Source: a virus. From it: a stretch of DNA of 28,731 nt. Below are positions 4,108-21,747 of the stretch, piece by piece. A model generated the notes under the pieces. It was not told where the DNA came from. It worked only from the letters and a program-made list of their open reading frames with translations, and ran no database searches. The DNA lies in IMG/VR virus record IMGVR_UViG_3300009164_003853, positions 1 to 28,731 of that record; one strand, given 5' to 3'. How positions within the stretch are numbered: position 1 is the stretch's first letter; each line of letters starts with the position of its first letter. A program made the translations under genes and the position numbers.

Positions 4108-5625
4108 TCAAGCTGTTAGTTTTCCAATGAGAGTATATCTAGTACCGCTCTCATCTGCTGTTTCGTCTTCAAACAATACTTCTACATTTATTGGAAGCTG
4201 TGTTTTAAACTCGGCCAAGGATGTAACACAGTTGATACGTCCTTCTTTACCAGTTCGATTGTTTGATTGAAACACAAAATGAGAACCTGGTTTAAGTCTT
4301 TTCCAAGATTCCCATTCTTTCATAGGCGGCATGTGTTCGCATATGGTATTGATGGTTAGATCTGCATCTTCAAATCGTTTTGCATTTTTAGTAATCACAT
4401 CAGCATCAATAATTTCTATATTAGCGTGTTCGTCAAATACTCCATGCTTTAATGATCTAACCAATAAATCATCACGATCAAAGCCAGACAATCGTTTGAC
4501 GTCTTTAGCCAAGGTAGTTATTAGTTCAACTGTGTGTTTGCAACCAAACACAATTATCTCAGAATTATTATCTAAAATAGATAGTCCGTTGATAAATTCC
4601 AGCATTTTTGTCTGAGACTGGTCTAATGCACCATTTTCTATTAAATAATTTGCCATATCGGTTTCCTTTGTTTCCTTTGTTTGCTGTTCTAGCAATTTGC
4701 GTAGTTGTCTTGACTCCTCTTCCAACTTCTTCTGCTGTTGTCTTAGTTCCTCTTCCAACTTCTTCTGCTGTTGTCTTAGTTCCTCTTCCAACTTCTTCTG
4801 CTGTTGTCTTAGTTCCTCTTCCAACTTCTTCTGTTGTTGTCTTAGTTCCTCTTCCAACTTCTTCTGTTGTTGTCTTGACTCTTCTTCTAACTTTCGATAA
4901 CGTTTTTCATCTTCTTGCTTTTGTTTTTCTAAATCTCTTTCTTGAATTGCTTCGTCAGACCATGCTCTTCCTACAAGTGTAAATCTAGTGCCTCGATCAT
5001 CAGTTAATTCTTCTTGGTGCAAAACCACAGCATGTTTTGGAAGTTGTTTTTTAAAATCTTCTATAGTATCAACACAATTAACATGTCCTTGAATTCCATA
5101 CATATTATTAGATTGAAATGCAAAGTATGCATCGTCACGCACCTTTGACCAATTGGGCCAATCGTTCATTGGAGACATGTGTTCGCATGAGGTATTTATG
5201 AACAACTTTGCTGTGCTGTAAATTCTTGGAAAATTAACAAATGCATCGCCTTCGATCAGTTTGACTTTTTTATTTTTCTTCCAAAAGTTATTCTTTGCAA
5301 TGTGTATTACCTGTTGGTCAAGATCAATTCCGTGTATACTTTTTACTTTCTCGCTCAATTTAGGTATAATAATGCTGCCATACCAACAACCAAATATAAC
5401 CACTTCACAGTTGCTGTCCAAACATCCTGTTTGATCTATCATGGACACCAATTGTGTTTTGGCAGCAAACTGATTTCTACCAAATGAGTCTTTGATATCA
5501 TTTGCCAATTCCGGATTATCTCGCATGGTAGCAAGGATGCTTTTCAGGAGAGTTAGGTCTACAGAAACGTTGTTCTGTAAATTTAAAACATTGCCTATAA
5601 ACTCTAAATCTTCTGTGTCAATCAT
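4108..5625 (-). CDS. Tandem methyltransferase-like protein with central coiled coil, 505 aa
   Basis: Two related Rossmann/SAM-methyltransferase-like domains flank a coiled coil. Domain 1 (about 70-222) has VVIFGCWYGS, HGIDLDQ, IEGDAF and SCEHMSPMNDW. Domain 2 (about 350-505) has IIVFGCKHT, SGFDRDD, IDADV and ICEHMPPMKEW. Both end in a 'RGTRFTLVGRAW/SGTRYTLIGKL' strand, so this is an internal duplication. The glycine loop of domain 2 (FGCKHT) is degenerate and may not bind SAM. Residues about 225-325 form a charged coiled coil with five 11-residue QQQKKLEEE[L/S]R repeats. I start at the ATG at 5625, whose ATGA overlaps the carbamoyltransferase stop, rather than at an upstream ATG inside that gene. 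It is probably co-translated with the carbamoyltransferase. The substrate is unknown. Confidence 0.7.
   Translation of the reverse strand: MIDTEDLEFIGNVLNLQNNVSVDLTLLKSILATMRDNPELANDIKDSFGRNQFAAKTQLVSMIDQTGCLDSNCEVVIFGCWYGSIIIPKLSEKVKSIHGIDLDQQVIHIAKNNFWKKNKKVKLIEGDAFVNFPRIYSTAKLFINTSCEHMSPMNDWPNWSKVRDDAYFAFQSNNMYGIQGHVNCVDTIEDFKKQLPKHAVVLHQEELTDDRGTRFTLVGRAWSDEAIQERDLEKQKQEDEKRYRKLEEESRQQQKKLEEELRQQQKKLEEELRQQQKKLEEELRQQQKKLEEELRQQQKKLEEESRQLRKLLEQQTKETKETDMANYLIENGALDQSQTKMLEFINGLSILDNNSEIIVFGCKHTVELITTLAKDVKRLSGFDRDDLLVRSLKHGVFDEHANIEIIDADVITKNAKRFEDADLTINTICEHMPPMKEWESWKRLKPGSHFVFQSNNRTGKEGRINCVTSLAEFKTQLPINVEVLFEDETADESGTRYTLIGKLTA
4708..4872 (-). repeat. Five tandem 33-bp repeats encoding a hendecad coiled coil
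   Basis: Five consecutive nearly identical 33-bp units lie within the double methyltransferase-like gene and encode QQQKKLEEE[L/S]R five times. Units differ by few bases (for example CTGCTG versus CTGTTG), so they are recent copies prone to slippage. Eleven-residue periodicity favours a long, slightly right-handed helical rod separating the two catalytic-like domains. Confidence 0.9.
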
Positions 5626-7133
5626 TTTTTTACCACAAAGTCTTTTATTACCAACAGATCTAATCCACATTTTTTAAATGTGTTCACAGCATCTTGAGGA
5701 GTTTCCACAATGGGTTCCTGACAGTTAAAACTGGTGTTAAGCAACATCGGGATGTCTGTGAGTTTATAAAACTCATTTATTAAACTGTAATAATGATTGT
5801 TAAATTCTTTGGTAACAGTTTGAATTCTTGCAGTACCGTCTACATGTGTTACTCCCGGAATCTTGTCTGATATCACAGGCATGATCCTTGACATAAACGG
5901 ACTGGGTTGATTGGTGTCAAAGTAGTCTTTGTAGTGTTCATCTAGAACACTAGGCGCAAAAGGTCTAAAGTCTTCACGCATCTTGACAACACTGTTAATG
6001 ATATTTTTAATATCTGGGTTTCTAGGATCGGCTAAAATACTTCTATTACCCAGGGCTCGATTGCCTGATTCACTTTTACCTTGAAACCAACCAACAATGC
6101 CCCCGTCAGCAATTGCCTTGGCCACTTCAACGTAAATTTCTTCCATTGGCTTTTGCTGGTAAGACAGTCCTTCGAATATGGCAGAGTCTACTTCATACTC
6201 ACCGCCCGAATAGACTGTGGGAACGTGAACGATGTCATTTAACACATAGTCGGCATGCATATAGGTTCCAATGGCCTGACCTTCATCTCCTGCCGCAGGC
6301 GGCACATGTACATTTACATAATGCTTGGTAAATGCTTCATTCATATAGCCGTTGTAGGCAACTCCGCCTGCAATACATAAATTGTCAGAAGTTTTAAGAG
6401 GATATACAAATTTCTTAACAAGCTCAATGGTAACATACTGTAGTGTAAATGCTACATCTTTTTTAGGAACACGCCTTAGAATATCTCTAGCATTGTTAGG
6501 AAGTTTGTGATTGGGATTTTCCAAGTACTGATGAATCATAGCATACACTTCATCGTTGTACTGGCCAAACCCCACTAGTCCCATTACTTTGCCTGCATCA
6601 AGGTATCCAAAACCAAGATCCTGAGCTAGTCTATTCCAAAGACCGCCTATTGACATGTTCTCAGACAAGTTTGTAATTAGGCCAGTCTTGTCAATGAAAA
6701 TGCAATTGAATTGCCATCCTCTTCCGTCTATTGCCAGTATGTCACTTTCTTTAAACTGTGAACTTAGAAATGCGTATGCAGCATGACTCTGATGATGGTC
6801 GATATAGTAATAGCTGTCTGTGTGCAATCGGTCCCATAGATTGGTTGGATTAAATTTTAAAAAATCTGTATCCGGTAGTGTTTCTTGAAGCAGGTCTAAT
6901 ACAAATTCCTGACCTAGGTTAGAAACAGTAAATGCAAATACCTCATCTTTAGTGGTACTTATATAGTTAGGTATGAAGTACTCATTAAAAAACTCTCTGC
7001 TGTACGTGGGATCGTGAGGATTTTTTCGATTGAGATTGTGTTTTCTTCGGTTGTGTCTTTCCACTTGATTGTGAAATACACCGTCATAGGTATTGTGATC
7101 GTGAATGTTTACTGCGACAGAAAATATTTTCAT
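5622..7133 (-). CDS. Carbamoyltransferase, NodU/CmcH/TobZ family, 503 aa
   Basis: Enzymes of this family transfer a carbamoyl group from carbamoyl phosphate, through carbamoyl-adenylate, to a hydroxyl of a sugar or antibiotic. Conserved motifs are clear. HHQSHA at 113-118 belongs to the N-terminal Kae1-like domain (metal and ATP binding), with LAIDGRG near 133. The C-terminal YrdC-like part has GWFQG at 348-352, RALGNRSILADPR from 359, REDFRPFAPS at 386-395 and LNTSFN at 465-470. The length is slightly below the usual 550-600 residues. Its ATG sits in an ATGA overlap with the radical SAM gene upstream, and its stop overlaps the methyltransferase-like gene. Glycan or small-molecule decoration is the likely role; the acceptor is unknown. 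Confidence 0.93.
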   Translation of the reverse strand: MKIFSVAVNIHDHNTYDGVFHNQVERHNRRKHNLNRKNPHDPTYSREFFNEYFIPNYISTTKDEVFAFTVSNLGQEFVLDLLQETLPDTDFLKFNPTNLWDRLHTDSYYYIDHHQSHAAYAFLSSQFKESDILAIDGRGWQFNCIFIDKTGLITNLSENMSIGGLWNRLAQDLGFGYLDAGKVMGLVGFGQYNDEVYAMIHQYLENPNHKLPNNARDILRRVPKKDVAFTLQYVTIELVKKFVYPLKTSDNLCIAGGVAYNGYMNEAFTKHYVNVHVPPAAGDEGQAIGTYMHADYVLNDIVHVPTVYSGGEYEVDSAIFEGLSYQQKPMEEIYVEVAKAIADGGIVGWFQGKSESGNRALGNRSILADPRNPDIKNIINSVVKMREDFRPFAPSVLDEHYKDYFDTNQPSPFMSRIMPVISDKIPGVTHVDGTARIQTVTKEFNNHYYSLINEFYKLTDIPMLLNTSFNCQEPIVETPQDAVNTFKKCGLDLLVIKDFVVKK

Positions 7134-7987
7134 TGATTGCCTACTTGTAATTTTTGCAATTCCTCTTCTTTAAGTATCTCAATGATTCGATTTTTTTGTG
7201 CTGTGGGCCGTTTTGGAATAATGTCATAGCACCGTTGACAATATTTTTCAAACTCAAATAGTTTGTAATTCATCATCTTATCAATGTTTTCTTTGGTAAC
7301 ATCAAACTGTCGTGAACCGTTAATTACTTTTCTGCTACAATGACGAATTTTTTGTATTTCAAAATCAAACACAGGTACTAGAGGAAACTTGGCACACACC
7401 TTGCGGTTAAGCTCGGGTGCCTGTACAGGTTTATGATCTGTGAAAAAGTCCGGAGACCTTGAATTGTATTCTTTGAATTCGGTGTTTTTATGATCAAGCA
7501 CAGATAGGTCGTACTGTTCTCTATACTTAAAATAATTAGGAGTCTTTATGATTAGATTGTAATTATTTTTATCGTTTTCTTTAAAGAATTCAAAGTTACC
7601 TAATTTTTCAATGCGTTCTTCGTAGAAGTCTAAAACCAAGTGTTCGATGTAAATGATCTCTGGATCTTCTAATATGTCTGGATAAAATTTACGGACTAGA
7701 GAGTTAGACAAAACTTGAATTACTAGATTGGGATGTTTTTTAATCTCGGCAATGACTTCTCTTAGATTCTTAACAAGGCCGGGCTCGCCACCTAGCAAGC
7801 AAATGCGTGTTTTGTAAGGACTCAGTCCATCTAAAATAGTTCTTACAAAGTCCATGTCTACATGGAGATTCCTCATCTCAAGAGTCCATGCAGTACAATA
7901 GTAACACGACTTATTACAAGACTTTGTTAGATAAAAGTCAACGGTGCGATAGTCTGATCCTTTTAGATCAGCCAGTGTTTTGATCAT
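7130..7987 (-). CDS. Radical SAM protein, 285 aa
   Basis: The radical SAM iron-sulfur motif CxxxCxxC is present as C24-C28-C31 (CNKSCYYC). It is followed by a GGEPG motif (66-70) that normally contacts SAM. More Cys lie towards the C-terminus (CAKFP, HCSRK, KYCQRCYD), suggesting one auxiliary cluster of SPASM/twitch type. Proteins of this class start reactions by making a 5'-deoxyadenosyl radical; the substrate cannot be read from sequence. The stop overlaps the carbamoyltransferase start as ATGA, implying translation in a fixed ratio and possibly a shared pathway. A CCAGGAC-like ribosome site precedes the ATG at 7987. A TATAAAAATA at about 8005-8014 (minus strand) resembles a late promoter but has an extra base. 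Confidence 0.9.
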   Translation of the reverse strand: MIKTLADLKGSDYRTVDFYLTKSCNKSCYYCTAWTLEMRNLHVDMDFVRTILDGLSPYKTRICLLGGEPGLVKNLREVIAEIKKHPNLVIQVLSNSLVRKFYPDILEDPEIIYIEHLVLDFYEERIEKLGNFEFFKENDKNNYNLIIKTPNYFKYREQYDLSVLDHKNTEFKEYNSRSPDFFTDHKPVQAPELNRKVCAKFPLVPVFDFEIQKIRHCSRKVINGSRQFDVTKENIDKMMNYKLFEFEKYCQRCYDIIPKRPTAQKNRIIEILKEEELQKLQVGNQ

Positions 7988-8029: not shown

Positions 8030-9106
8030 TTAAACAAAGGATGTTGGTATTTTGCTTGGGCCATTGGTGAGAATATCAAGAAATATATCATTTAGTGATA
8101 GTAATTGATCTTTTGTTTCTTCGTCGTTGAGTACATTGTCTATAATATAATTAATTAAAAATTTATGGACATTGGTTTCAACTTCGAGGTTCTGTATTTG
8201 CCTAACATCCTTTATCCAATATCTTGACGCTATATGGCTTATATTGCTGATTTTATTTATATTGCTGATTTTTTTTAAATTTAAATCAGAAACGTATGCA
8301 TCAAAAACTAAATTTAAATCTCTATGACATTTGACATAATCATCGGTTCTGGTTGGATAATTATTTTTCTGCCATTCTACAACTGCTTCAATGACTGTTG
8401 ATTTACTATCAATTAATTTTCTGATTGGCGCTTCTATTATTTGTTCATTCTTTACAAAGTTTACAATTCGTGCGTAATCTGGCCTAGTATCTAACAATTC
8501 TAATCCAATATACGTGTCTCGTACATATTTTAGTCCCTTGCCAATTGTCACCACAAAATCTGGGCGATGGTCTAAGAATTTCCATTCATCTTCTTCCCAG
8601 TTCTCTAATTTTTTAGGAAAGCATAGTACATACGACACATCTATTCGATATTCTAAACATAGCGCAGCAAAGGTATTGGTAAACATCCCGATCTCTAGAA
8701 TTGCATTGGTATAATGTTCGTCTATCTTAGTAGGATCTATTTGTGAATAATTTCGCCCTTTACTGATCATATGTCGTTGAAATGGATTTGGTTGATCCTC
8801 AACTCGTTGTGTAAATATCAATAGGTGCGAGCAAGTTACTATGTTGTGAAATCTTGGTAATTTGTCGCCAGGTCTATTATAATCGTCTTGGTTATATTCG
8901 TGATAGTAGGCTTTTTTATAAATTTTGTTTTTTAGATCTTGCTGATCGGGGCCTAGTACATGAACTTTATACGGCATAAAATTATTTTTTGACGGAGTTA
9001 CCTTCCAAGTTCTTTCTAGCAAATCGCTTATAAGAGATTCCGGTATATCTGCATTTTGATCGTACTCTTTTACATACTTGTATTTTTTATAAATGTCGTC
9101 GATCAT
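8030..9106 (-). CDS. Nitroreductase-like domain fused to a virion-type domain (NTR-X order), 358 aa
   Basis: Residues 1-215 look like a divergent nitroreductase (FMN oxidoreductase) fold. LLERTWKVTPSKNNFMPYKV corresponds to the 'aA..aPS..N.qpw.f' entry. ILEIGMFTNTFAALCLEYRIDVSY corresponds to the 'd.g.a..nl.l.A...Gl...' helix. PDFVVTIGKG is the final strand. Residues about 220-350 are a second domain, 'WQKNNYP......YVKCHRDLNLVFDAYVSDL...IASRYW'. This resembles the 'CRRDvg.ivDA...DL......A..Y' helical domain I associate with marine T4-like virion proteins. The same domain is at the N-terminus of the upstream gene, in reversed order. The gene follows that neighbour after a 1-base gap, with a GGGAGA ribosome site. 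The nitroreductase assignment is moderate and activity is unproven. Confidence 0.65.
   Translation of the reverse strand: MIDDIYKKYKYVKEYDQNADIPESLISDLLERTWKVTPSKNNFMPYKVHVLGPDQQDLKNKIYKKAYYHEYNQDDYNRPGDKLPRFHNIVTCSHLLIFTQRVEDQPNPFQRHMISKGRNYSQIDPTKIDEHYTNAILEIGMFTNTFAALCLEYRIDVSYVLCFPKKLENWEEDEWKFLDHRPDFVVTIGKGLKYVRDTYIGLELLDTRPDYARIVNFVKNEQIIEAPIRKLIDSKSTVIEAVVEWQKNNYPTRTDDYVKCHRDLNLVFDAYVSDLNLKKISNINKISNISHIASRYWIKDVRQIQNLEVETNVHKFLINYIIDNVLNDEETKDQLLSLNDIFLDILTNGPSKIPTSFV
8057..8449 (-). repeat. Domain X copy B (virion-type helical domain), C-terminal copy
   Basis: This stretch encodes residues about 220-350 of the 358-aa protein and is closely related at both DNA and protein level to 9906-10280. 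Both begin NE[QP]IIE and share EWQKNNYP, KCHRDLNLVFDAY, HKFLINYIIDNVL and GP at the end. Copy B is 393 bp and copy A 375 bp. The 18-bp difference is accounted for by a local tandem duplication at 8241-8276. The near-identity indicates a recent duplication. Confidence 0.88.
8241..8276 (-). repeat. 18-bp tandem duplication inside domain X copy B
   Basis: Two 18-base units starting ATATTGCTGATTTT (plus-strand reading) lie side by side, at 8241-8258 and 8259-8276, differing at one base. They encode the duplicated NINKIS segment that is absent from copy A. The insertion keeps the frame and falls in a likely inter-helix loop. It looks like a recent slippage event. Confidence 0.85.
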
Positions 9107-9107
9107 A

Positions 9108-10283
9108 TCATTCTCCCGAATGGAATGTTGTTATGGTGCTTACACTTGGTTTATTTTCCCAATGCATACGTTTGGGATTTTTGCTGTTGCTTCGAAACCA
9201 ATCTCGCACATTTGCTACATAACCTAGTTGTACAATCATCAAAGGCTGTTCTGTAATACAAGGCAGAGAGCTCCAATCTAGCCCGTGCTTGTTGCCATTC
9301 TTTCTATATACTCCAGCTTGACCTGCCCATTGCCATTCCGGGAATGATCTTATGTAGGATATTCCTAGATCGTTTTCTAAACATAGGCCTGCCAGTGCTT
9401 GTACAAACATCCCAACTTCAATGCAGGTTAATTTGGTATTGCATAGTTCTCTGAATCTTTTTTCGTCGGTTTGTGTAAATCTGCTGTAGTCGTCGTGCAG
9501 GTTGGAATATTCTTTAACAAAATTATTTGGTTCTGCAAGTCTTTGTTCAAACACCAATACCCATGGTGATATTCTTCTATCCTTGCCCTCTTCATCGAGA
9601 ATATATTCTGTTATGTTTTGCACTCCATTAAAAGATTTAAATTCTCCGTTGTGATTTGCATCATCCCAGTGATTCACTGATCCTGTTTCGTATAAGGTAC
9701 AAATCTGTCCAACGATTTCTTTTTCTTTTGGATTGTCGGGGCCGAACGCATGAATCTTAAAAGGAAACAAATTCTGCTTAGAAGGACTAATATTAAGTGT
9801 GCGCTCAAGCAAATTTTCTATTAGTTCCTTGCTTGGCAGTTTTTGCTGATCCCAGGCTGCACGAATCTGCCTTCTTTTCGAATATAGATTTTCAATCCCT
9901 GTTGTCGGTCCATCGGTAAGAATATTAAGAAATACATTGTTTAGAAATAGTAATCGATCTTTTGTTTCTTTGTCTTCGAGTACATTATCTATAATATAAT
10001 TAATTAAGAACTTATGGACGTCAGTTTCAACTTCGAGATTGTGTATTTGTCTAACAGACCCTACCCAATATTTTGATGCTATATAACTTATACTACTGAT
10101 TTTATGTAAATTTAAATCAGAGATATATGCATCAAAAACTAAATTTAAGTCTCTATGGCATTTGGCGTAATCATTGGTCCTATTAGGATAATTATTTTTC
10201 TGCCATTCTATAACTGTTTCGATGACAATCTGTCTGCTTTCAGTTAATTTTTGAATCCCTGTTTCTATTATTGGTTCATTCAT
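9108..10283 (-). CDS. Virion-type domain fused to a nitroreductase-like domain (X-NTR order), 391 aa
   Basis: Residues 2-126 are copy A of domain X (IEWQKNNYP, KCHRDLNLVFDAY, IASKYW). Residues about 130-391 are a divergent nitroreductase-like domain homologous to the N-terminal half of the downstream protein. It has LLERTLNISPSKQNLFPFKI, EVGMFVQALAGLCLENDLGIS and PLMIVQLGYV, and ends in a basic tail. The domain order is the reverse of that in the neighbour. Its ATG overlaps the stop of the classical nitroreductase upstream (ATGA). The order along the transcript is therefore NTR, X-NTR, NTR-X, which suggests tandem duplication of an NTR-X unit followed by a shift of gene boundaries. The substrate is unknown. 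Attachment to virions through X is only a possibility. Confidence 0.65.
   Translation of the reverse strand: MNEPIIETGIQKLTESRQIVIETVIEWQKNNYPNRTNDYAKCHRDLNLVFDAYISDLNLHKISSISYIASKYWVGSVRQIHNLEVETDVHKFLINYIIDNVLEDKETKDRLLFLNNVFLNILTDGPTTGIENLYSKRRQIRAAWDQQKLPSKELIENLLERTLNISPSKQNLFPFKIHAFGPDNPKEKEIVGQICTLYETGSVNHWDDANHNGEFKSFNGVQNITEYILDEEGKDRRISPWVLVFEQRLAEPNNFVKEYSNLHDDYSRFTQTDEKRFRELCNTKLTCIEVGMFVQALAGLCLENDLGISYIRSFPEWQWAGQAGVYRKNGNKHGLDWSSLPCITEQPLMIVQLGYVANVRDWFRSNSKNPKRMHWENKPSVSTITTFHSGE
9906..10280 (-). repeat. Domain X copy A (virion-type helical domain), N-terminal copy
   Basis: It encodes residues 2-126 of the 391-aa protein and is the partner of the repeat at 8057-8449. It lacks the 18-bp insertion and otherwise aligns along its full length. 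The two copies are direct repeats about 1.8 kb apart, so recombination between them would delete one nitroreductase-like region and fuse the rest. Confidence 0.88.
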
Positions 10284-11014
10284 AAAATTTTTCCATTTAA
10301 TGTTACTCTAATATTTTTTTCAAAACTGGGAAACCTCCAATGTTCATCCGGCTCGCCGTTTCGAACAGCTTCATGAACATCTTTGTTTAATGCTTCAGCG
10401 TGTAATCTACGATCAACATCAACATTTGGATATCCAATCCCCACTAACAGTTTTATTCTATTATTTACACCAAGCAATTGTCTAACTGGATCTTCATCTA
10501 TGGCTGAGCATATACCAGTTTTATATCCTAACAGGGTCGCAGACAGTATGAGTTCACCTACGCTAATCCCGATAGAAACATTTATTTGTTCTTCGTATAG
10601 TGTCATTGCATTACTATCTCTATTCTCTTTTGCGGCAGTGTGTGTTGCAGATCTTGTCCTGCCCTCTTCTCTTACATATACGAATAAAACATTTGCAAGT
10701 ATTTGAGAATTTTTTACAGACAGTGTGTCATCTTGCCAGTATTTTCCGTTTTCGTCAACTCCAAACCTTCTTGTTTGTCCAGGTGATCTGCATGTAAATT
10801 TTTTTGTATTATCGTACACCTGTTTAATTATAGACTGATCAGTGTATATCTTCAATGAATAATGTGTTTCATTTTGTTTAGAAGGAGAATTAGCAGCAGC
10901 GTATATCAGTGTTTTTAAATCTTGTTCTGGAATAGTTTTAGATAGGTCGTAGTTGCGCTGTGCTCGTTGTGCTATGTCTACTGCTTTTTTTATTTCTTCA
11001 TGCATATAATTCAT
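10280..11014 (-). CDS. Nitroreductase-family FMN oxidoreductase, 244 aa
   Basis: Nitroreductase-family enzymes use FMN and NAD(P)H to reduce nitro groups, quinones or flavin, or to oxidise azolines, aromatics or reduced flavin in specialised pathways. The signature features are present: AAANSPSKQNETHYSLKIY (residues about 33-51, FMN-binding entry), a central SIGISVGELILSATLLGYKTGICSAI helix-turn, and LLVGIGYPNVD near 200. It is the most classical of the three adjacent paralogues. Two ATGs (11014 and 11005) are possible and neither has a strong ribosome site. I keep the first because it overlaps the aminotransferase end by 17 bases. The downstream stop overlaps the X-NTR start. The substrate is not predictable. 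Confidence 0.85.
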   Translation of the reverse strand: MNYMHEEIKKAVDIAQRAQRNYDLSKTIPEQDLKTLIYAAANSPSKQNETHYSLKIYTDQSIIKQVYDNTKKFTCRSPGQTRRFGVDENGKYWQDDTLSVKNSQILANVLFVYVREEGRTRSATHTAAKENRDSNAMTLYEEQINVSIGISVGELILSATLLGYKTGICSAIDEDPVRQLLGVNNRIKLLVGIGYPNVDVDRRLHAEALNKDVHEAVRNGEPDEHWRFPSFEKNIRVTLNGKIL

Positions 11015-12077
11015 TACGTAAAGTGTTTATAATATTTTTAATTTCGTCTTCTGTTAACCATGCATGTATTGGCAATGATAAAATAGTTTCAGAAACCAAT
11101 TTAGAATTTACACAATCGTCTTTTCTATAGGCAATGTTGTTGTACATTGTGTTTATGCTCAACGACTTTTCATAATGAACCGAAGCACGAAGTGCATTTT
11201 TTACTCGATCCCTAGTTTGTTTATCCTTGAACCTTAATGTATATTTGTGATAATTATGATTTAGACCCGGTGAATCTGTTTGTGTATACACTGGCAAATC
11301 TTTAAACGCTTCGTTGTATTGACGAGCAATCTCTTGACGTTTTGTCTGAGTCTTTTCCATACTTTGCAATCGTAGGTCAATGACTCTTGCATTGAGAACA
11401 TACATTCTAGAATTGAAACCCAGCATTTCAAAGTCGTCGCCTTTGCCATGACGTCTAATTTTTTTAACTAACTTTGCCTGTTTTTCGCTGTCAGTTAATA
11501 ATACGCCACCACCGTTAATGCCTGCAATGACTTTGTTGCTGTTAAAACTATACACGCTACAATCTCCAATGGTGCCTGCCTTTGTGCCATGTAGACTTGA
11601 TCCTAAACTTTGTGCCGCATCTTCAATAAATGCAATGCCTTTTTCTTTACAGAACTCTTTAATCGCAGTAGTATCTGTCATATTGCCAAAAAGATGAACA
11701 TACACAACAGCCTTGACCTTTTCGCTGTACATTCGTTTAACACTGTCTAGATTCATGTGGTAAGAGTCTAGATTGATGTCACAGAATACAGGTGTTGCAC
11801 CTACTGCACTAATACAGGCCGAAGACGATATCCAGGAAAAATCAGTTACCAGTACTTCGTCACCCGGTCCTATGCCGTAACTCAGTAATGCAAAGTGCAA
11901 TGCATCTGTGGCATTTGCCACTGATACAGCATACTTTTTACCTACACGCTCTGCAAAGGATTTCTCCCACTGTTCATTGTTTTCGTAGTTGAGCTGTGAC
12001 ATAAACTTGTCGAATAACTCTAGGTATGCTTGTTTATTTTCTTGGTACTCTCGATCCCAACCGTCATATGATGTCAT
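10998..12077 (-). CDS. DegT/DnrJ/EryC1 family PLP aminotransferase, 359 aa
   Basis: These fold-type I enzymes usually convert nucleotide-keto-sugars to amino sugars, and more rarely act as dehydratases or make aminocyclitols. PLP features are visible: VANATDALHFAL (about 53-64, phosphate cup), DFSWISSS near 79, IEDAAQSLGS with D153 and Q156, and the Schiff-base lysine K182 in SFNSNKVIAG. The GGGVLLTD and RRHG motifs follow. The length is normal. It sits between a radical SAM gene (ATGA overlap upstream) and a nitroreductase (17-base overlap downstream). The neighbouring glycosyltransferase-like and carbamoyltransferase genes favour amino-sugar synthesis for a glycan, but the donor and product are inferred. 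Confidence 0.93.
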   Translation of the reverse strand: MTSYDGWDREYQENKQAYLELFDKFMSQLNYENNEQWEKSFAERVGKKYAVSVANATDALHFALLSYGIGPGDEVLVTDFSWISSSACISAVGATPVFCDINLDSYHMNLDSVKRMYSEKVKAVVYVHLFGNMTDTTAIKEFCKEKGIAFIEDAAQSLGSSLHGTKAGTIGDCSVYSFNSNKVIAGINGGGVLLTDSEKQAKLVKKIRRHGKGDDFEMLGFNSRMYVLNARVIDLRLQSMEKTQTKRQEIARQYNEAFKDLPVYTQTDSPGLNHNYHKYTLRFKDKQTRDRVKNALRASVHYEKSLSINTMYNNIAYRKDDCVNSKLVSETILSLPIHAWLTEDEIKNIINTLRNELYA

Positions 12078-12820
12078 AGTGATTCCAATTTTTTATGTGA
12101 TAACTTTCGCCAGTCGTTAAGACTCTTAGATTTATATCCCCAATACTCTTTTTTAACTCGCTCTTGAATATATTTTTTATCAGGACTTGTTAGTTGAAAG
12201 TCTACGCTTTTTCTAAGCAAGGGATTGTCTGCGCTAAAACCTCTATTTGTGTTTATGAATAATAGACTAAAATCTTCTTCTTTGGCTATTTCTATCGCAC
12301 GATCTATTTCGTGCTCGTTGTAGCCAAAAATAATGTATTGCCAGACTATGGTATGTCCTGCATCCCTGCCTTGCTTCATTCGTTTCCAAACATCGTCAAA
12401 GTTTGAACCTATCCTGTACAATTCACTCTTGTTGTCAATTCCGTCTACACCAAAGTACCATGCGTTTTCTCCCACGCCATAGCTGTAGGCTTCATCCCAC
12501 CAAGCATCACTTTTGCCACTTCCAACGGTTGCAATTCTAATTGCCTTGCCTTGCCCGCTACACATTTTTAAAATGTTTAAGAAATTAGGATGATAGATAG
12601 GATCAGATATCTGTCCGCAGAAAGTGATACCATATTCGTAATAATCAAGTATTTTTTTAAAATTATGTTCTTCTAGATCAAAGGATCTACGAATCTGTTC
12701 TTGACTTGTTGTTTTTTGACGTATGCATTGAGGACATTTGAATACGCATCGATATGATGCATCAACATTGGGTCGAACAAACCGTTGATACTTTACATAT
12801 TCATCAGTTATTCTTGCCAT
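12074..12820 (-). CDS. Radical SAM protein, 248 aa
   Basis: The CxxxCxxC cluster motif is C25-C29-C32 (CVFKCPQC). It is followed by a TFCGQISDPIYHP segment in place of the usual GGEP, as in some radical SAM/SPASM proteins, and by WYFGVDGID and a C-terminal helix-rich part without clear auxiliary Cys. I start at the ATG at 12820, preceded by GGAGCAGG, rather than at an upstream in-frame start that would extend deep into the preceding gene; the overlap is then 17 bases. The upstream gene encodes a free SPASM-like domain, so the two may together make one split radical SAM/SPASM enzyme. The stop overlaps the aminotransferase start. The substrate is unknown. Confidence 0.85.
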   Translation of the reverse strand: MARITDEYVKYQRFVRPNVDASYRCVFKCPQCIRQKTTSQEQIRRSFDLEEHNFKKILDYYEYGITFCGQISDPIYHPNFLNILKMCSGQGKAIRIATVGSGKSDAWWDEAYSYGVGENAWYFGVDGIDNKSELYRIGSNFDDVWKRMKQGRDAGHTIVWQYIIFGYNEHEIDRAIEIAKEEDFSLLFINTNRGFSADNPLLRKSVDFQLTSPDKKYIQERVKKEYWGYKSKSLNDWRKLSHKKLESL

Positions 12821-13154
12821 TGGCCTGCTCCTTGATTTCAGCTCTTTCCTCGGCCCTAACTGCATCTTTATCTATATCAACACCGCATTTCTTTTTACAC
12901 ATGTACGAAGCATTTTCAGGCCTAGTTAACAGTGTTTGAAAAAAGTTTTCCCATTGATCTGATGTAAAAATATCTTCTAATCTTTCGTTATTAGATAACA
13001 ACAGTTCTTCATCCTTTAGACCGCACATTTTAATATACCGATAAACCGGAGGATCATCTAACCAGCAACAGGGCAACATAAATCCGTCTGATGTATAAGC
13101 TGCTCCTTTGTTATCATTTGAAGTGTAGTTTAAACACTTTGGGTTTATTTTCAT
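12804..13154 (-). CDS. Free-standing SPASM/twitch-like iron-sulfur domain protein, 116 aa
   Basis: The sequence resembles the C-terminal auxiliary-cluster domain of radical SAM/SPASM proteins with no radical SAM core. It has an N-terminal CLNY, then TSDGFMLPCCWLDDP (the 'g.v.PCC..d' motif), CGLKDEE, a 'lediFtSdqWenFfqtl' stretch typical of SPASM regions, and CKKKCG near residue 88. A Lys/Glu-rich helical tail follows (ERAEIKEQ). It begins in an ATGA overlap with the glycosyltransferase-like gene and overlaps the radical SAM gene downstream by 17 bases. A split enzyme in which this subunit binds auxiliary 4Fe-4S clusters for the adjacent radical SAM protein is the simplest reading, but it is inference. 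Confidence 0.7.
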   Translation of the reverse strand: MKINPKCLNYTSNDNKGAAYTSDGFMLPCCWLDDPPVYRYIKMCGLKDEELLLSNNERLEDIFTSDQWENFFQTLLTRPENASYMCKKKCGVDIDKDAVRAEERAEIKEQANGKNN

Positions 13155-14005
13155 TTGAGTTTCTCTATAGCATTTAATATTGGGGCAACATCGAGCTTTT
13201 TAATATCACGTTTATAGTATACGCTGCCACCATCGTGTATCGATTGGTCTCTAAGATAGATCAATCCTTTTCCGTAGTACTTGCACTCTTGTACGATTCT
13301 AGGAGCAGGATCAAACGTTTCTTTGACATAGACATAGGTATCAAAAATACCCAACAAGTTTTCTATTGGTGCAAATACATTATTGTTTTTAATGTTAACA
13401 TATTTTTCACGGTATGTCAATATCCCATTGTCTGGAAATTGATCAATAAATTTTTCTGCTGTTGCATAGTATTTGTCATTGGTTCCCTGAAATAGGTATT
13501 TGAATTGAATGTTATCAGTATGAGGTTTGTATATGTCAAAATAGATGGTTTTTTCAAAATGTTCGCCAACACCGTTGGAATAAACTTCTGTGTCACATAA
13601 ATCAATGATTTTCTCCGGAGAGTAAAACTCCACTGCTTTGGGATAGCCTTCGGGATGATTTTCGGAATACACAGAAATTATTTTGCCTGCAAATAATTTT
13701 CGCAGTGTAGATTGTTGCGTTTCTTGATATCGGGCAAACTCTTGCCAGCTTGAGGTCATCATGCTTCTGCCCATGATCAGCGTTATGTCGTCTTTTGCCG
13801 GAGTGAAATCATCAAACACTACATTTTGGTTGTGAATGTACTTGTTGTCAATGGCGCTGATGTAATTTTCTTTTGAGAATCTTCTATGACCAACAATAAC
13901 CAATCGGGCTGCTATGCCTAGAGAATTTAGATACGAACAATGTTCGTAGCTATAATACAATAGACCGTCAACGGGCTTGCTGGTGCATACAATATTTAAA
14001 GTCAT
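13151..14005 (-). CDS. Glycosyltransferase-like protein, 284 aa
   Basis: The protein has the alternating strand-helix pattern of a GT-B-like fold: MTLNIVCTSKPVDGLLYYSYEH at the start, ARLVIVGH, DDITLIMGRSMM and KIISVYSENHPEGYPKAVEFY in the first half. The second half has KYLFQGTNDKYYATAEKFID, FDTYVYVKETFDPAPRIVQECKYYGKGLIYL and a final helix. The 'FDPAPR.vQEc.yyGk' region occupies the place of the donor-binding Glu-rich motif of family GT4-type enzymes, but the match is loose. No membrane segment is present. It is the first gene of the minus-strand biosynthetic run, 91 bases from the divergent plus-strand operon, with GATAAATA about 20 bases upstream. An alternative is a phage-specific protein with no transferase activity. 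Confidence 0.55.
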   Translation of the reverse strand: MTLNIVCTSKPVDGLLYYSYEHCSYLNSLGIAARLVIVGHRRFSKENYISAIDNKYIHNQNVVFDDFTPAKDDITLIMGRSMMTSSWQEFARYQETQQSTLRKLFAGKIISVYSENHPEGYPKAVEFYSPEKIIDLCDTEVYSNGVGEHFEKTIYFDIYKPHTDNIQFKYLFQGTNDKYYATAEKFIDQFPDNGILTYREKYVNIKNNNVFAPIENLLGIFDTYVYVKETFDPAPRIVQECKYYGKGLIYLRDQSIHDGGSVYYKRDIKKLDVAPILNAIEKLK

Positions 14006-16714: not shown

Positions 16715-17404
16715 TTAAACAATTTCAAAAAATGCAACTTTGATTGTGTCTTTGATTATTGGGTCAGCCTTTGGTTCTATAACTCTTGTATCTGGAAATC
16801 TAGAATGAAGCCATTGTCCAGCGGAATCAAAGTCCCACCATTCAATACTGTGCTTTTTAGCAAATTCTAAAACCAGATCGCTTTCTTCTTTTATCTGCTT
16901 TGACATTTTCTCAGGACCTTCATACCATGTATATATGGGATAATGTATATCCCATCCCCCCATACTATACCACCAATCTTCTGCGGCTTTTGGTTCACGC
17001 CATATCAGCAGCATCTTATGGCCTTTACAGTTTTTCCATATCCAATCTAGATTGTATGCAAACCAATGGCTTCTAATCAGCTTGTTTGGTCGTTCTTCAT
17101 CTGTGAAAGGTTTAAAACATTCTTTTAAAAAAGATTCTGTTGTGTAGTTTTTAGAAATATTGTCAAACCCGTGGCCGAAATCATGATATGGACCAAAATA
17201 AGATCCAACATGAGTTGTTTGTTGCCATGAGGTATCGGTTATATTATAATGTCGGCCTGCATGTTCCTCAGGCATTTTATAAATTTTTTCGGTGGTTTCA
17301 TCAGTTTTATCAAAATAAGGCATTATTCTTTTTAATCGATTACTGATCATGCTCCAGCATGACCCAGGCGCTCCTGTGGTAAAGACCAATGTATGTTTTT
17401 GCAT
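16715..17404 (-). CDS. P-loop sulfotransferase-like protein, 229 aa (paralogue 1)
   Basis: The P-loop TTGAPGSCWS (residues 9-18) follows a hydrophobic strand, matching the phosphosulfate-binding loop position of sulfotransferases. Other shared features with the paralogues at 17406 and 23045 are THVGSYFGPYHDFG...FD, RSHWFAYNLDWIWKNCKG, the strand MLLIWREPKAAEDWW (the 'iyi.RdP' strand) and GGWDIHYPIYTWYEG. All three families of motifs are conserved in order, which argues for an active enzyme family. Whether PAPS is the donor is not certain, since a kinase role is also possible. It directly follows paralogue 2 with a 1-base gap, a tandem duplication. Confidence 0.6.
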   Translation of the reverse strand: MQKHTLVFTTGAPGSCWSMISNRLKRIMPYFDKTDETTEKIYKMPEEHAGRHYNITDTSWQQTTHVGSYFGPYHDFGHGFDNISKNYTTESFLKECFKPFTDEERPNKLIRSHWFAYNLDWIWKNCKGHKMLLIWREPKAAEDWWYSMGGWDIHYPIYTWYEGPEKMSKQIKEESDLVLEFAKKHSIEWWDFDSAGQWLHSRFPDTRVIEPKADPIIKDTIKVAFFEIV

Positions 17405-17405: not shown

Positions 17406-18071
17406 TTAGGTTATTTCCGTATAAATGACTGATATTTTGTTTACATTGTATTCGACGGCTGGCGGCCTGTTAGTTTGAGTGATTTCTTCTCTGCCAAATT
17501 TTTCTAGCCACCATTCTTCACAATATGTTTCCCATTTGAGATTTTTTTCTTTGGCAAATCTTAATAAGCTGTTGTTCTCTTCTATGATCTGCTGGGTTAT
17601 TTTTTCATTATTTTCATACCAGGTGTATACGGGATATTTAATATTCCACCCGCCTATTTTCTCCCACCAATCAATTGCACCTTGACTTTCTTTGTGAATT
17701 AGGAATAGGGTATTTCCTTTACAATTTTCCCATAACCAATCTAAATTATAAGAAAACCAATGGCTTCGAATACATTTAGTCTGACTGCCGTCATGGTTAA
17801 ACGGAAGTCGACATTCGTTGTAAAAACTTTCTAAGGTATAATTATTTGGAATATCGTCGAAGCGTTCACCAAATTCATTATAAGGTCCAAAATAACTTCC
17901 AAGGTGTGTTCTATTGGTATCCTGTGTGGGATCTCGGTGTGGTGCTAGATGATGGCGGGATCCGTTGATATCTGATAGATCGTGATTTAAAATAAGTTTA
18001 AGACGATGAGAAAGCATACTCCAGGAACTTCCGGGCACGCCAGTAACAAAACAAAAATTAGGATTGATCAT
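17406..18071 (-). CDS. P-loop sulfotransferase-like protein, 221 aa (paralogue 2)
   Basis: It has the same architecture as its tandem neighbour: VTGVPGSSWS at 9-18, THLGSYFGPYNEFGERFDDI, RSHWFSYNLDWLWENCKG, the strand TLFLIHKESQGAIDWW, and GGWNIKYPVYTWYEN followed by a helix. The 'RdP' arginine of the canonical family corresponds to a Lys here (HKESQ), one difference from paralogue 1 (WREPK). The C-terminus diverges, so substrate specificities may differ. It begins in an ATGA overlap with the 2-oxoglutarate oxygenase-like gene upstream, so the two are likely made together and may act on the same target. Confidence 0.6.
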   Translation of the reverse strand: MINPNFCFVTGVPGSSWSMLSHRLKLILNHDLSDINGSRHHLAPHRDPTQDTNRTHLGSYFGPYNEFGERFDDIPNNYTLESFYNECRLPFNHDGSQTKCIRSHWFSYNLDWLWENCKGNTLFLIHKESQGAIDWWEKIGGWNIKYPVYTWYENNEKITQQIIEENNSLLRFAKEKNLKWETYCEEWWLEKFGREEITQTNRPPAVEYNVNKISVIYTEIT

Positions 18072-18994
18072 CTTGGAATAATAGGAGGTTGGTCATGTAC
18101 TTTATCAAACATGTTAGTTTCTTCATTCCATCGATATCTGGTATCAGGGGTTCCTTCTTCGTAAAATTTGTACGATGATTCAGTCATATATCCTGTTAGG
18201 TGCAAACTAAATCGTGGCTTCATGCACATATTAGCAGTACCGTGTGGCATGTGCATCCAGTCCCAAGAAATACATTCTCCCTTGACCCAATGAGTATATG
18301 AAGTATTACCAAAGTTCCAAACATGCCCAGGAACCCAATCTTCTAAGAATATAGCGAATCGTCTGAATCGATGCGTCTCGTATTGCAAGGCCGTGTCGTT
18401 CTTCATGATATTCATATATGTATCATAGTGATTGTTAGCACATTGCATGGGGCGCTGTATATGAATCAATGAATAACCGTCTTCTCTTAGAGCGCCTTGA
18501 TGTGCCTTCTCTTCATCTAGACCAATATAATCTCTAATCTTTGTACACCACGACCCCATTGGAGCTGAATCAAATATCTCATGAGAACTTGCATCAAGTC
18601 CGTGTCTTTCAAACTCTTTTACTGTAGATGCTTGGTAATGAGGACTTCCGGGCTTGTCATATCCCTGAGTACCGGTTCTGGTAATCCAGGTAGTAGGATG
18701 AGACCGTTCCAGTGCTATCGCAATATCATCAGAAAAATCAATGCCCTCAAATACTCCTAACCGATCAATCACACTGTCAATAGGATCGGGACCCCAACGC
18801 ATTTGATCATAATTGGCATAACTTTCACAGTGATCCCATCTACTTACAATGCCTTTGGTCATCCTAGGATGACTATCTGCTTTTACTAATTTTTGTTCAC
18901 GTAACTCGCGCCACTTGGCAAATTTTTCATCTAGTTCTCGTTGCTCTTGTAGGTACTGATCCCACGGTTTTTTAATAATTATTTTTTTACTCAC
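18068..18994 (-). CDS. Fe(II)/2-oxoglutarate-dependent oxygenase-like protein, 308 aa
   Basis: The first 60 residues are charged and helical. The catalytic part carries a likely facial triad: H189 and D191 in NNHYDTY, and H251 in MPHGTANM, with R261 (KPRFSLHLTG) placed to bind 2-oxoglutarate. The strand FAIFLEDWVPGHVWNFGNTSYTHW resembles aspartyl/asparaginyl beta-hydroxylase-type cupins. The start is GTG at 18994, with GGAGG upstream inside the methyltransferase gene, and overlaps it by 8 bases. It is related to the 235-aa protein at 19673-20380 and is longer at both ends. Hydroxylation of a peptide side chain or small molecule is likely; the target is unknown. Confidence 0.7.
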   Translation of the reverse strand: MSKKIIIKKPWDQYLQEQRELDEKFAKWRELREQKLVKADSHPRMTKGIVSRWDHCESYANYDQMRWGPDPIDSVIDRLGVFEGIDFSDDIAIALERSHPTTWITRTGTQGYDKPGSPHYQASTVKEFERHGLDASSHEIFDSAPMGSWCTKIRDYIGLDEEKAHQGALREDGYSLIHIQRPMQCANNHYDTYMNIMKNDTALQYETHRFRRFAIFLEDWVPGHVWNFGNTSYTHWVKGECISWDWMHMPHGTANMCMKPRFSLHLTGYMTESSYKFYEEGTPDTRYRWNEETNMFDKVHDQPPIIPR

Positions 18995-19676
18995 TTTGTT
19001 TCCTCCAAGTCCAACTTTGTCTTTTAAGTTGTTGCATTAAACTATCTTTAATTTTTTTTGATTCTAACCAATGATTATCTTTAACACCGGTATCAACCTG
19101 ATTTCTTTTCATTCTTTCATATTTCTTTTCTAATAGTTCTAGAGGTGCTGTGGCATTATAAGTCCACGGTTCAACAACATATTCTAAATTATATTTTTCT
19201 GTAATTTCGTTTCTAAGTTGATCGTTCCAGGGATATCGAACAGCGTCTTTGTCGTAGATTGCATGGTATTCTTTAGAAAATTCATCATTGAGCATTACAC
19301 GCATCTCAATCAAACCACCAGGTTTAACCCAGCCAATGACTTTATTGATATTGGCAAGAATATATTCTCTACTGATATATTGTATACTTCCTAGACATAG
19401 CACAGCATCGGCACTGTCTGGTTCAAATTGTGCATCGAGAATTGCACAGTTTATATCAACATTTGGAAATGGACTTGCATCAAAACCTATCAAATTTTGA
19501 ATGAATGGTTTATGTTGGTTCTTTCCGCAGCCAGCATCAATTACCAGAGTCGGGTTCAACGCATTTACTCTAGCATACATTTCTTCAAGGCCTGCATTCT
19601 CTTGAAATTGATTCCCCATCCAATCTGACGGTTTATACCGTTCAGGAAGAGTAGTTTGATAGTACAAGTCACTCAT
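18987..19676 (-). CDS. Class I SAM-dependent methyltransferase, 229 aa
   Basis: Motif I is VIDAGCGKN (45-53). An acidic strand end, LIGFDASPF, serves as motif II. Then come a DAVLCLGSIQYI strand (motif IV, usually NPPY or similar, here LGSIQYI) and the VKPGGLIEMRV post-motif. The spacing is normal for a small class I enzyme. It sits between two oxygenase-like genes, overlapping both (ATGA upstream, 8 bases downstream), so a hydroxyl made by them could be its methyl acceptor. A homologue with the same 'DxGCGxNpfk..I.nLiGiD' opening is encoded on the other strand at 21854. Confidence 0.85.
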   Translation of the reverse strand: MSDLYYQTTLPERYKPSDWMGNQFQENAGLEEMYARVNALNPTLVIDAGCGKNQHKPFIQNLIGFDASPFPNVDINCAILDAQFEPDSADAVLCLGSIQYISREYILANINKVIGWVKPGGLIEMRVMLNDEFSKEYHAIYDKDAVRYPWNDQLRNEITEKYNLEYVVEPWTYNATAPLELLEKKYERMKRNQVDTGVKDNHWLESKKIKDSLMQQLKRQSWTWRKQSE

Positions 19677-20380
19677 TTATCTAGTAGCCCATATTCCATC
19701 CAGGCCTGATATTCTATCACTGGAATTTCGTAGGTGTTCTGTGCTTCTTTTAAAAATTTAAGAGTTTTATCTGTGACAACACCTGTGGTTAATAAACTGA
19801 CTCTGGGAGTTAATCCAGCGTTGGCAGAACTATGAGGAACATTTTTCCAATCAAAGGTGTGTATATCACCGGCACGCCAATGACTGTAGGTGTAATTACC
19901 GTACTGTGCAAAATGTCCTTGATCCCAATCAGTAAGCTGTATCATAATACGCATGACCTTTAATGGATCTTCTGGGTTGACTTTTTGTAATTTATCTATG
20001 TGTTTGGTAAAAACCTGACCAGGCCATTGTACATGTATTCTATCAAACCTATTTGTCAGCCCTATTTTATCACACATTTCTCTGAATACAGGTTCTAGTT
20101 TGTATTCAAAATTGGCAATGGTCATGTTGGGGTCAGCACCGGCTGTACTGAGATCATATTCTTCTTTGTCAATGTGTTTATTAGGTTTGCCATCTTCGGA
20201 TCTAGTTCTCCAAGTCACTGGCTGTGCAGATTTAATTACTTCTGCAAGTTCGTATTCCCAGTTGCCAAGAAATCTTCCTATTCCTTGTACACAATCCCAC
20301 CTTGCATCAGTTTTCCAATTGTCAAAATGATATGCTGATTTAGCTTTAAGCATTTCCCAATTACTTTCAGATGTTTCCAT
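19673..20380 (-). CDS. Fe(II)/2-oxoglutarate-dependent oxygenase, Asp/Asn hydroxylase-like, 235 aa
   Basis: The double-stranded beta-helix signatures are clear. HxD is H127-I-D129 (FTKHIDKL), the distal His is H183 in VPHSSANAG, and R193 follows ten residues later (PRVSLLTTG). The strand MRIMIQLTDWDQGHFAQYGNYTYSHW between them contains the Gly/Trp turn also found in the 308-aa relative. AGAGGATAAA upstream serves as ribosome site. It heads an overlapping oxygenase-methyltransferase-oxygenase-transferase-transferase run (20380 to 16715). Known relatives hydroxylate Asp or Asn beta carbons in proteins or free amino acids. Which applies here cannot be told. Confidence 0.78.
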   Translation of the reverse strand: METSESNWEMLKAKSAYHFDNWKTDARWDCVQGIGRFLGNWEYELAEVIKSAQPVTWRTRSEDGKPNKHIDKEEYDLSTAGADPNMTIANFEYKLEPVFREMCDKIGLTNRFDRIHVQWPGQVFTKHIDKLQKVNPEDPLKVMRIMIQLTDWDQGHFAQYGNYTYSHWRAGDIHTFDWKNVPHSSANAGLTPRVSLLTTGVVTDKTLKFLKEAQNTYEIPVIEYQAWMEYGLLDK

Positions 20381-20403: not shown

Positions 20404-20757
20404 TTAAGTAAAAAGATGGCCGAAGATAAAATAATCTATTATAAATGTGGTCTCGGCACCTATGAATACTGCCAGCCAATAGTTTCCTATTTTATTCCAA
20501 ATAAATCTTATATACCACCAAGCTGCTATAACTCGCAGAGTGTAGAGTACATCGGACTTTAGATATTCAACGACATCAGGTAACTCTAAAGCATTGAAGT
20601 AATGTCCAAAGACAAAAGTATCGTAGGCAAAACTCAGCTGTGCCATAATAAACACAGCCAAGTAGTAGGGCAGATATTTGCTGAGTATTTTTACTATGGG
20701 CCCGCTGACTATGAGTCGGTAGGCCACATAGATTATATTTGTAAGAATTAATTCCAA
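20404..20757 (-). CDS. Small membrane protein with internal duplication, 117 aa
   Basis: Most of the chain is hydrophobic, with about four potential membrane segments. It is built of two similar halves: KYLPYYLAVFIMAQLSFAYD then FVFGHYF, and KIGNYWLAVFIGAETTFIID then FIFGHLF. The core 'YxLAVFIxAexxFxxDxFxFGHxF' is thus duplicated. The start codon is TTG at 20757, immediately after the TAA of the solute-binding gene. No good Shine-Dalgarno is present, so expression may depend on that gene's translation. It resembles no family I can name. Its position after a Bug/TctC-type gene hints at the small TctB-type subunit (four membrane segments), but no TctB motif is seen. Confidence 0.65.
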   Translation of the reverse strand: MELILTNIIYVAYRLIVSGPIVKILSKYLPYYLAVFIMAQLSFAYDTFVFGHYFNALELPDVVEYLKSDVLYTLRVIAAWWYIRFIWNKIGNYWLAVFIGAETTFIIDYFIFGHLFT

Positions 20758-21747
20758 TTAATTTTCTGGTTTAATTCTCTGTGCGATCGGTTGCCAAACT
20801 CGGCGCAGGCCAATCATACCATTCTTTAGGCCTTGTTCTGTTTGCCATTCTGGTGTAGCAAACATGAAGTTTTCTTTAAACTTTTCTTGTACTTCGGGAT
20901 GCTTGCTGGCTGCATTAAATTGTTCTCTATACCATTTGGCAATTTCTGGATCAGTGCCGGGCGGCAGAACAATGTTCCAACAACCGTGTATGCTTAGACC
21001 CGGTACAAGATCTTTCATTAATGGTGCTTTCTCTAAACCAGCTAGAGGAAAATCGTTGGCAATACCAATTAGTTTTAATTTTCCACTTTGAACATGAGGA
21101 TAGCCTACAGTAACTGGGGTAACACCAAATTCAGCATGTCCGCCCATGACATCTAGCAGAGCTTGAGCTGGACCTTTGTACATAGGAGTTTCTACCATGT
21201 CGCCGCCTGCGACTTTGAGATTGGTAGTTAGGTATTCAACTGCTAGTTTGTGACCAGCGCCGCCAATGGCAATGTTGATCTGTCGGTCTTTTTTCTTGAT
21301 AGCATCTATGAGTTCTTTGGGAGTATTGATCTTGCTACTAGGATGTGCCCAAAATGCCAATGGGCTTCTTGCAATATGTGTTACATGCACCGCCTGCATC
21401 ATGTCGTATTTGGCCACCTGCGGATACCAAACTTCCGGGGTGACCCATGCACTTTGACAAGCAGGTACTGCTAGAGTCTGTCCATCATTGGCTGTTTTGT
21501 TAAACAAATGATTCATAGCAATGTTTCCATCTGCGCCAGGCATGTGCTGTGGTTGGAATTTTACTCCAGGATTGTTTTGCTCCACAACACTGGCCAACAA
21601 TCTAAAACTAATTTCGTTGCCTGCACCAGGGCCGTTAGGTAGTATAAAATTAACTGTGCCTCTGGGTTGCCATGCTTGTGCGGCAGTAGTAACTAGGGCT
21701 ATGGCCAATACCATTAGGCCTTTCGTGAACTCGCTTTTAGTCAGCAT
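20758..21747 (-). CDS. Bug/TctC-family periplasmic solute-binding protein, 329 aa
   Basis: A clear Sec signal peptide (residues 1-25, MLTKSEFTKGLMVLAIALVT then TAAQA before W26) indicates export. The mature part has the family layout: FILPNGPGAGNEISFRLLA near the start, PGADGNIAMNHLF, VTHIARSPLAFWAHP, LIDAIKKKDRQINIAIGGAG, MYKGPAQALLDVMGGHAEFG, GYPHVQSGKLKLIGIAND and DLVPGLSIHGCWNIVLPPGTDPEIAKWY. Bug/TctC proteins bind carboxylates for tripartite tricarboxylate transporters and are greatly expanded in proteobacteria. No TctA permease is in the window. Base composition looks richer in G+C than its neighbours, consistent with acquisition from a host. AAGGAG lies 8 bases before the ATG. A phage gene of this type may alter host uptake. 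Confidence 0.9.
   Translation of the reverse strand: MLTKSEFTKGLMVLAIALVTTAAQAWQPRGTVNFILPNGPGAGNEISFRLLASVVEQNNPGVKFQPQHMPGADGNIAMNHLFNKTANDGQTLAVPACQSAWVTPEVWYPQVAKYDMMQAVHVTHIARSPLAFWAHPSSKINTPKELIDAIKKKDRQINIAIGGAGHKLAVEYLTTNLKVAGGDMVETPMYKGPAQALLDVMGGHAEFGVTPVTVGYPHVQSGKLKLIGIANDFPLAGLEKAPLMKDLVPGLSIHGCWNIVLPPGTDPEIAKWYREQFNAASKHPEVQEKFKENFMFATPEWQTEQGLKNGMIGLRRVWQPIAQRIKPEN

Follow-up and report, generated by a model that had tools for sequence, protein, structure and literature searches.

Phycobiliproteins (PF00502; CpcA, CpcB and the bilin domain of ApcE) are pigment proteins of the globin fold with which cyanobacteria harvest light. The CxRD motif is known as a covalent bilin-attachment motif (PMC10151467). 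The BBAGs of Rockwell et al. 2023 are phycobiliprotein relatives that do not harvest light; some of them contain CXRD, they are found alongside heme oxygenase/FDBR genes, and those with CXRD take up bilins in E. coli without lyases (PMC10151467). Nitroreductases are nowhere mentioned in the text of that paper. Bilins are also made by phages, and partners of the BBAG type have been proposed for them (PMC11480375).

Biosynthetic gene clusters form a second point of comparison. The hypervariable regions of pelagimyophages carry radical SAM and glycosyltransferase genes (PMC7029224). Pelagiphage Mosig EXVC030M (MT647606, 60.9-71.3 kb) contains a nitroreductase, a radical SAM protein, a DegT-type aminotransferase, a carbamoyltransferase and a methyltransferase in one operon-like run, as does the locus described here. 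Unlike that locus, Mosig has no copy of the domain discussed below anywhere in its genome.

The 28.7-kb stretch analysed here, referred to as the window, is a virus record of IMG/VR; its source is a marine virus of bacteria. Its biosynthetic operon holds two adjacent paralogues of the flavin-type nitroreductase fold (NTR), each of which bears a helical domain of 126-131 residues that we call X. The NTR halves agree in fold and family with PF00881, which includes NfsB, BluB and SagB-type enzymes, but they belong to a divergent phage family (NTR-A). X differs from the BBAGs in being fused to a nitroreductase and in that no heme oxygenase/FDBR genes were found in the fragments that carry it.

Gene organization of the locus

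The genes and domains of the locus are listed in Table 1. Successive genes on the minus strand are P0003, P0002 (4-bp overlap) and P0001 (1-bp spacing), and because of this tight packing the three look like one operon. As the earlier note had proposed, the two fusion genes hold the same pair of domains in opposite orders, X-NTR in P0002 and NTR-X in P0001, and both open reading frames are as it described them.

Table 1. Genes, domains and motifs of the nitroreductase cluster in the 28.7-kb window
Feature	Position	Strand	Length or evidence
Methyltransferase-like domain protein, cluster end	4108..5670	-	PF13649 E=2.5e-5, under Pfam cut-off
Carbamoyltransferase, cluster gene	5622..7133	-	PF16861 E=1.2e-65
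Radical SAM protein, cluster gene	7130..7987	-	PF04055 E=7.2e-7
P0001, NTR-X fusion gene	8030..9106	-	358 aa
X2, second copy of X, P0001 residues 220-350	8057..8449	-	DNA and protein identity to X1; virion-repeat profile
18-bp tandem duplication inside X2	8239..8281		Sole indel in X1/X2 protein alignment; matches gap between DNA blocks
CHRD motif of X2	8318..8329	-	Both window copies read KCHRD
P0001 NTR half, residues 1-219	8450..9106	-	X-less orthologue 64% identical in L007/L008
P0002, X-NTR fusion gene	9108..10283	-	391 aa
P0002 NTR half, residues 127-391	9111..9905	-	Foldseek 3eof E=7e-7; VIA 3gbh Z 15.5, 2b67 Z 15.1
X1, phycobiliprotein-fold (globin) domain, P0002 residues 1-126	9906..10283	-	AF2 pLDDT 94; VIA Z 15.9; virion-repeat profile E=7.6e-8
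CHRD motif of X1, preceded by Lys	10149..10160	-	Aligned with bilin-attachment Cys84-x-Arg86-Asp87 of phycocyanin alpha
P0003, stand-alone nitroreductase (NTR-B)	10280..11014	-	PF00881 E=5.4e-13; overlaps P0002 start; probable operon with P0002/P0001
DegT/DnrJ aminotransferase, cluster gene	10998..12077	-	PF01041 E=5.7e-84
Second radical SAM protein, cluster gene	12074..12865	-	PF04055 E=7.8e-7
Glycosyltransferase-like conserved gene, cluster	13151..14005	-	Assigned by inspection only; no Pfam match

A comparable run of genes is found in Mosig and in five IMG/VR contigs (L007, L009, L012, L019 and L026), and the same five contigs contain syntenic homologues of the glycosyltransferase-like gene. 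The baseplate gene VrlC, which flanks the hypervariable cluster region in pelagimyophages, was considered as a donor of X and rejected, as the VrlC of Mosig lacks the X repeat.

Several other features of the window were recorded. A 33-bp tandem repeat (4704-4876; 5.2 copies, 97% matches) lies within the methyltransferase-like gene on the minus strand and encodes a charged linker rich in Gln, Glu and Lys between two repeated stretches that look methyltransferase-type (match below the Pfam cut-off). Three minus-strand paralogues that are 29-41% identical (16715-17404, 17406-18071 and 23045-23758) appear sulfotransferase-like by eye, and the one member searched had no Pfam or PHROG match. A paralogue pair on the same strand (18068-18994 and 19673-20380; 25% identity, E 3e-21) is possibly 2OG-Fe(II) oxygenase/Asp-hydroxylase-like by inspection, with no Pfam match. 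A phage-encoded TctC-type substrate-binding protein (20758-21747, minus strand; PF03401, 1.6e-21) adjoins a small membrane-like open reading frame at 20404-20757, and the protein encoded at 24338-26605, also on the minus strand, is tail-fibre-like and contains an Mtd_N domain (major tropism determinant N-terminal; 3.3e-9).

Nitroreductase halves

The assignment of the NTR halves to the nitroreductase fold, made in the earlier note, held up: the full-length AlphaFold2 model of P0002 (pLDDT 85.6) matches nitroreductase structures over residues 129-388 (Table 1), and the P0001 half belongs to the same family. P0001 and P0002 gave no match when searched individually against PF00881; the profile was matched by 35 of the 61 rows of their family alignment, with a best E-value of 3.4e-12. 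Weak matches of P0002 to CBM_21 and to a lincosamide nucleotidyltransferase were taken as chance. X-less relatives of the P0002 half are 55-60% identical to it. At least 164 IMG/VR stretches encode NTR relatives; single-protein viral scans with P0002 and X1 as queries gave no matches, and a scan of 84,980 genomes of bacteria and archaea, limited to the peptide patterns chosen, turned up no NTR-A relative.

Duplication and selection of X

The two X copies had been described as close at the DNA level; we found two ungapped blocks of 80-83% identity, and a gapped alignment of 394 nt gave 79%. Their proteins are 74% identical (E=2.6e-58), whereas the NTR halves of P0001 and P0002 share just 28.6% identity, so the recent duplication was confined to the X segment. 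X2 would have arisen by copying of the P0002 X segment onto the adjacent NTR gene, at its 3' end. Comparison of the copies yielded dN/dS of 0.14/0.585 (NG86) and 0.145/0.672 (YN00), that is, about 0.22-0.24, so that both have been kept by purifying selection since the duplication; the ratio by LWL85 was 0.5. The GC content of X is 0.29, against 0.35-0.39 in the NTR halves.

X and the tail repeat of T4-like marine phages

The first leads to the identity of X were weak tblastn matches to cyanophage gp7-like and virion proteins and a match to PHROG 18802, "virion structural protein" (0.0075). Because the loci under comparison had been picked by weak similarity of this kind, a separate profile was grown only from the gp7 repeats of P-HM2 and their relatives on viral contigs (179 units) and was searched over 3,084 open reading frames from the window and the cluster loci. 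The seed of this profile itself traces to a weak X match; L007, L019, L026, L009 and L012 were not used in choosing it. Nine open reading frames matched (1.7e-9 to 1.4e-3), every one of them X-bearing, including P0002 (7.6e-8) and P0001 (2.1e-5), and hhalign of X against the virion repeat gave a probability of 97.7%. The "virion-type" character that had been attributed to X is therefore confirmed, since the profile picks out exactly the X-bearing proteins.

The repeat of T4-like cyanophage tail and baseplate proteins (gp7-like, T4-GC 734, short tail fibre) is the same domain as X, with the difference that it sits repeated inside very large tail proteins while X is single and linked to an enzyme. 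A tblastn search of named phages with a viral-contig repeat returned 56 records, for the most part under the annotation of a tail, short tail fibre, baseplate or structural protein. One 262-kb phage contig (G012) has a related NTR cluster as well as two open reading frames with X repeats, which match a PHROG virion structural protein (6e-254) and a tail fibre protein (1.5e-222). These two tail genes lie at L171 3741-9677 and L172 5640-10487, and the same genome encodes heme oxygenase and bilin reductase. A further virion protein (L155, 589-5127) consists in part of at least six tandem X-type repeats, mostly with CxRD, some of which match PF00502 (0.0028, 0.0069).

Relationship to phycobiliproteins

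Profile comparisons and predicted structures together identify X and the tail repeat as remote homologues of phycobiliproteins. When the AF2 model of X1 alone (pLDDT 94) was compared with known structures by VIA, all 50 of the matches listed were phycobiliproteins (Z 14.7-15.9 over 115-121 residues), and Foldseek likewise returned phycobiliproteins, with E-values from 0.009. The shared globin fold takes in 117-121 of the 126 residues of X. The full P0002 model, which was built without virion rows, gave phycobiliproteins for its X part with Z up to 16.2 and rmsd of 1.5-2.3 A in the best rows; a combined alignment of NTR, X and virion sequences (A6) was left out of folding, its X rows being misaligned. 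Against the PDB, the X-only profile (A3) matched phycobiliproteins in 26 of 27 cases (best E 0.0042), the virion-repeat-only profile matched almost only phycobiliproteins (best E 1.5e-4), and for the joint profile the best E-value was 9.9e-6 and all 60 matches listed were phycobiliproteins. In hhalign, the probabilities were 88.5% for X against phycobiliprotein, 87.5% for the virion repeat and 94.5% for the two joined, with 0.7% for an NTR control.

Single sequences lie near the edge of detection. PF00502 matched the X domains of L009 (0.0014) and L019 (0.019), together with a pair of virion units (0.0028, 0.0069), none of them reaching the curated cut-off, the best X score being 20.6 bits against 22.2; X1 of the window had no match to it. 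Over 13 phage records PF00502 matched X open reading frames only. In the reverse direction, a CpcA/CpcB profile built from 66 cyanobacterial sequences placed X proteins at the top of the 3,084 phage open reading frames (5.8e-4, 1.2e-3, 0.035), and the window copies received no useful E-value from it.

X also departs from the phycobiliproteins in several respects: it is NTR-fused, phage-encoded and under the Pfam cut-off, the loop preceding its Cys falls short of that in CpcA by about 10 residues, and X lacks the N-terminal X/Y helices of the light-harvesting subunits, its residue 1 aligning with subunit residue 31-32. Because these helices, which serve subunit pairing, are absent, X was not filed as a light-harvesting phycobiliprotein. 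The domain assignment of the earlier note thus stands as to virion-repeat homology and is incomplete, for the virion domain is itself a globin of the phycobiliprotein superfamily and the motif that had been noted in X is the bilin-attachment CxRD.

The CxRD motif

The motif of X is in register with the bilin-attachment site of phycocyanin alpha, and the Lys before its Cys is also present in CpcA. Of 8 distinct X domains, 7 retain KCxRD and that of L012 has lost it; the L012 protein, an X-NTR fusion (L012:68-1336), reads TRVEN in the region, with RVEN at the motif and the remainder of X kept. Since X was retained there despite the loss, the domain can evidently work without the Cys. In the virion repeats, Cys and Asp occur in 118 of 118 units counted, as CxRD in 84, CxDD in 32 and CxTD in 2, and because the two residues are near-invariant in tail repeats they may be structural. 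Bilin binding by X, as predicted from the aligned motif, is plausible.

Distribution of X among nitroreductases

In the NTR tree, the P0002 NTR half falls among X-less proteins (100/99), whereas that of the X-NTR protein of L007 groups apart, near P0001-type proteins, and the closest relative of P0001 in L007 itself is without X. A third type (NTR-C) includes four distinct sequences with X at the N terminus (L009, L012, L026 and L262), most NTR-C open reading frames being X-less. In the L019 cluster X has a gene of its own, and a C-terminal X was seen in the window only. Because X is scattered in this way over NTR paralogues, it appears to have joined nitroreductases at least three or four times, always in this cluster, gain and loss being indistinguishable in each single case. 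A single clade for all X domains was rejected: it held when phycobiliproteins were left out, and with them X splits, the NTR-C-type X lying near phycobiliproteins and the NTR-A-type X near virion repeats. The order in the unrooted tree is phycobiliproteins, X of NTR-C, X of NTR-A and virion repeats, with long branches flagged, and because of these branches no direction of transfer was drawn from it.

Within one kind of phage biosynthetic cluster X is joined to NTRs of several types and once stands alone, which makes it a recurrent module and not debris. The suggestion that it might be a remnant of recombination was not borne out, given the purifying selection on the two copies and the recurrence of X on several NTR paralogues.

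Bilin supply

Genes for both heme oxygenase and Fe_bilin_red are present in Mosig, G012, G021 and G022, that is, in 4 of the 5 NTR-cluster records longer than 100 kb that were examined, a count without a base rate; the fifth (G019) has neither. The idea that the window contig carries bilin genes was rejected, as PF05996 and PF01126 had no match, and no heme oxygenase/FDBR genes of these families were found in the other X-bearing contigs, which are, like the window, fragments.

Discussion

Most likely X serves cytoplasmic flavin enzymes as a working accessory domain. Our leading hypothesis, narrowly ahead of docking without a ligand and given a probability of about 0.4, is that it binds a bilin as an accessory module of the nitroreductases. 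X would then work, inside infected cells, as a part of the NTR enzymes. A linear tetrapyrrole (bilin) would be bound at KCxRD, covalently or not, as phycobiliproteins and BBAGs do, and this step is the least certain. The bilin might be presented to the FMN site of the fused or a partner NTR, or be photo- or redox-coupled with it, and could be supplied by the phage, several relatives of which have heme oxygenase and bilin reductase, or by the host. Against bilin binding stand the retention of X in L012 without its motif, the shortened loop and missing helices, the possibly structural role of Cys and Asp, the PF00502 scores under the cut-off and the failure to find bilin genes in the X-bearing fragments, and likewise the facts that Mosig has bilin genes and the cluster yet no X, and that most cluster NTRs are X-less.

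It is possible, although we would sooner bet against it, that X has lost ligand binding and is a docking or oligomerisation module that joins NTR paralogues, or an NTR and another cluster enzyme, in the cytoplasm, in which case its globin surface would matter, as would the invariant W, Q and E residues, and the Cys would not. X occurs at either end of different NTR paralogues of one operon, and the L012 domain dispenses with CxRD while 7 of 7 share W27, L57, Q79 and E86, as such a role would allow. Nitroreductases are normally dimers and phycobiliproteins pair, which also agrees with docking, but the helices that mediate phycobiliprotein pairing are absent from X, and KCxRD persists in nearly all X domains though the two X groups are only about 20% identical.

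An unlikely role for X is that of a tether, by which it would dock in the tail or baseplate through the virion-repeat interface so that the NTR enzymes are carried on the particle. The homology of X to tail and baseplate repeats, and the co-occurrence in G012 of X-repeat tail proteins with a related NTR cluster, are compatible with this; the X-NTR genes, however, are located in a biosynthetic operon, and because the complete phage Mosig has the NTR cluster without X repeats, the NTR enzymes evidently work without a dock in the virion. Slightly more improbable still is that X is a functionless fragment of a structural or phycobiliprotein-like gene attached to NTR genes: most NTR relatives are X-less, the lower GC content of X is consistent with a separate origin and the C-terminal copy is confined to the window, but the low dN/dS between the copies, the confident fold, the fusions to NTRs that recur in unrelated contigs and the free-standing copy in the same cluster argue otherwise. 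That X is a mere helical bundle with a chance CxRD and no phycobiliprotein link is very improbable, for although the Foldseek E-value of X alone is modest and helical models may score Z of about 13-14 by chance, three profiles (X, virion and both) and the reverse profile agree on phycobiliproteins, CxRD is in register and the NTR control is negative.

Conclusions

We found no prior report of a link between X or the tail repeat and phycobiliproteins in the open-access literature, and this identity is new here. It extends the known range of phycobiliprotein relatives to phages and gives a fold to a widespread, mostly unannotated tail repeat of marine T4-like phages. A broader proposal, which we regard as doubtful, is that these phages domesticated a bilin-binding globin twice, as NTR module and as tail repeat, and that the two would be the missing acceptors of phage-made bilins, so that enzymes would carry a chromophore and virions might be pigmented. 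As phage-encoded, testable candidates for bilin partners, the NTR-linked X and its counterpart in tail proteins bear on the question of why phages of non-phycobilisome hosts make bilins (PMC11480375).
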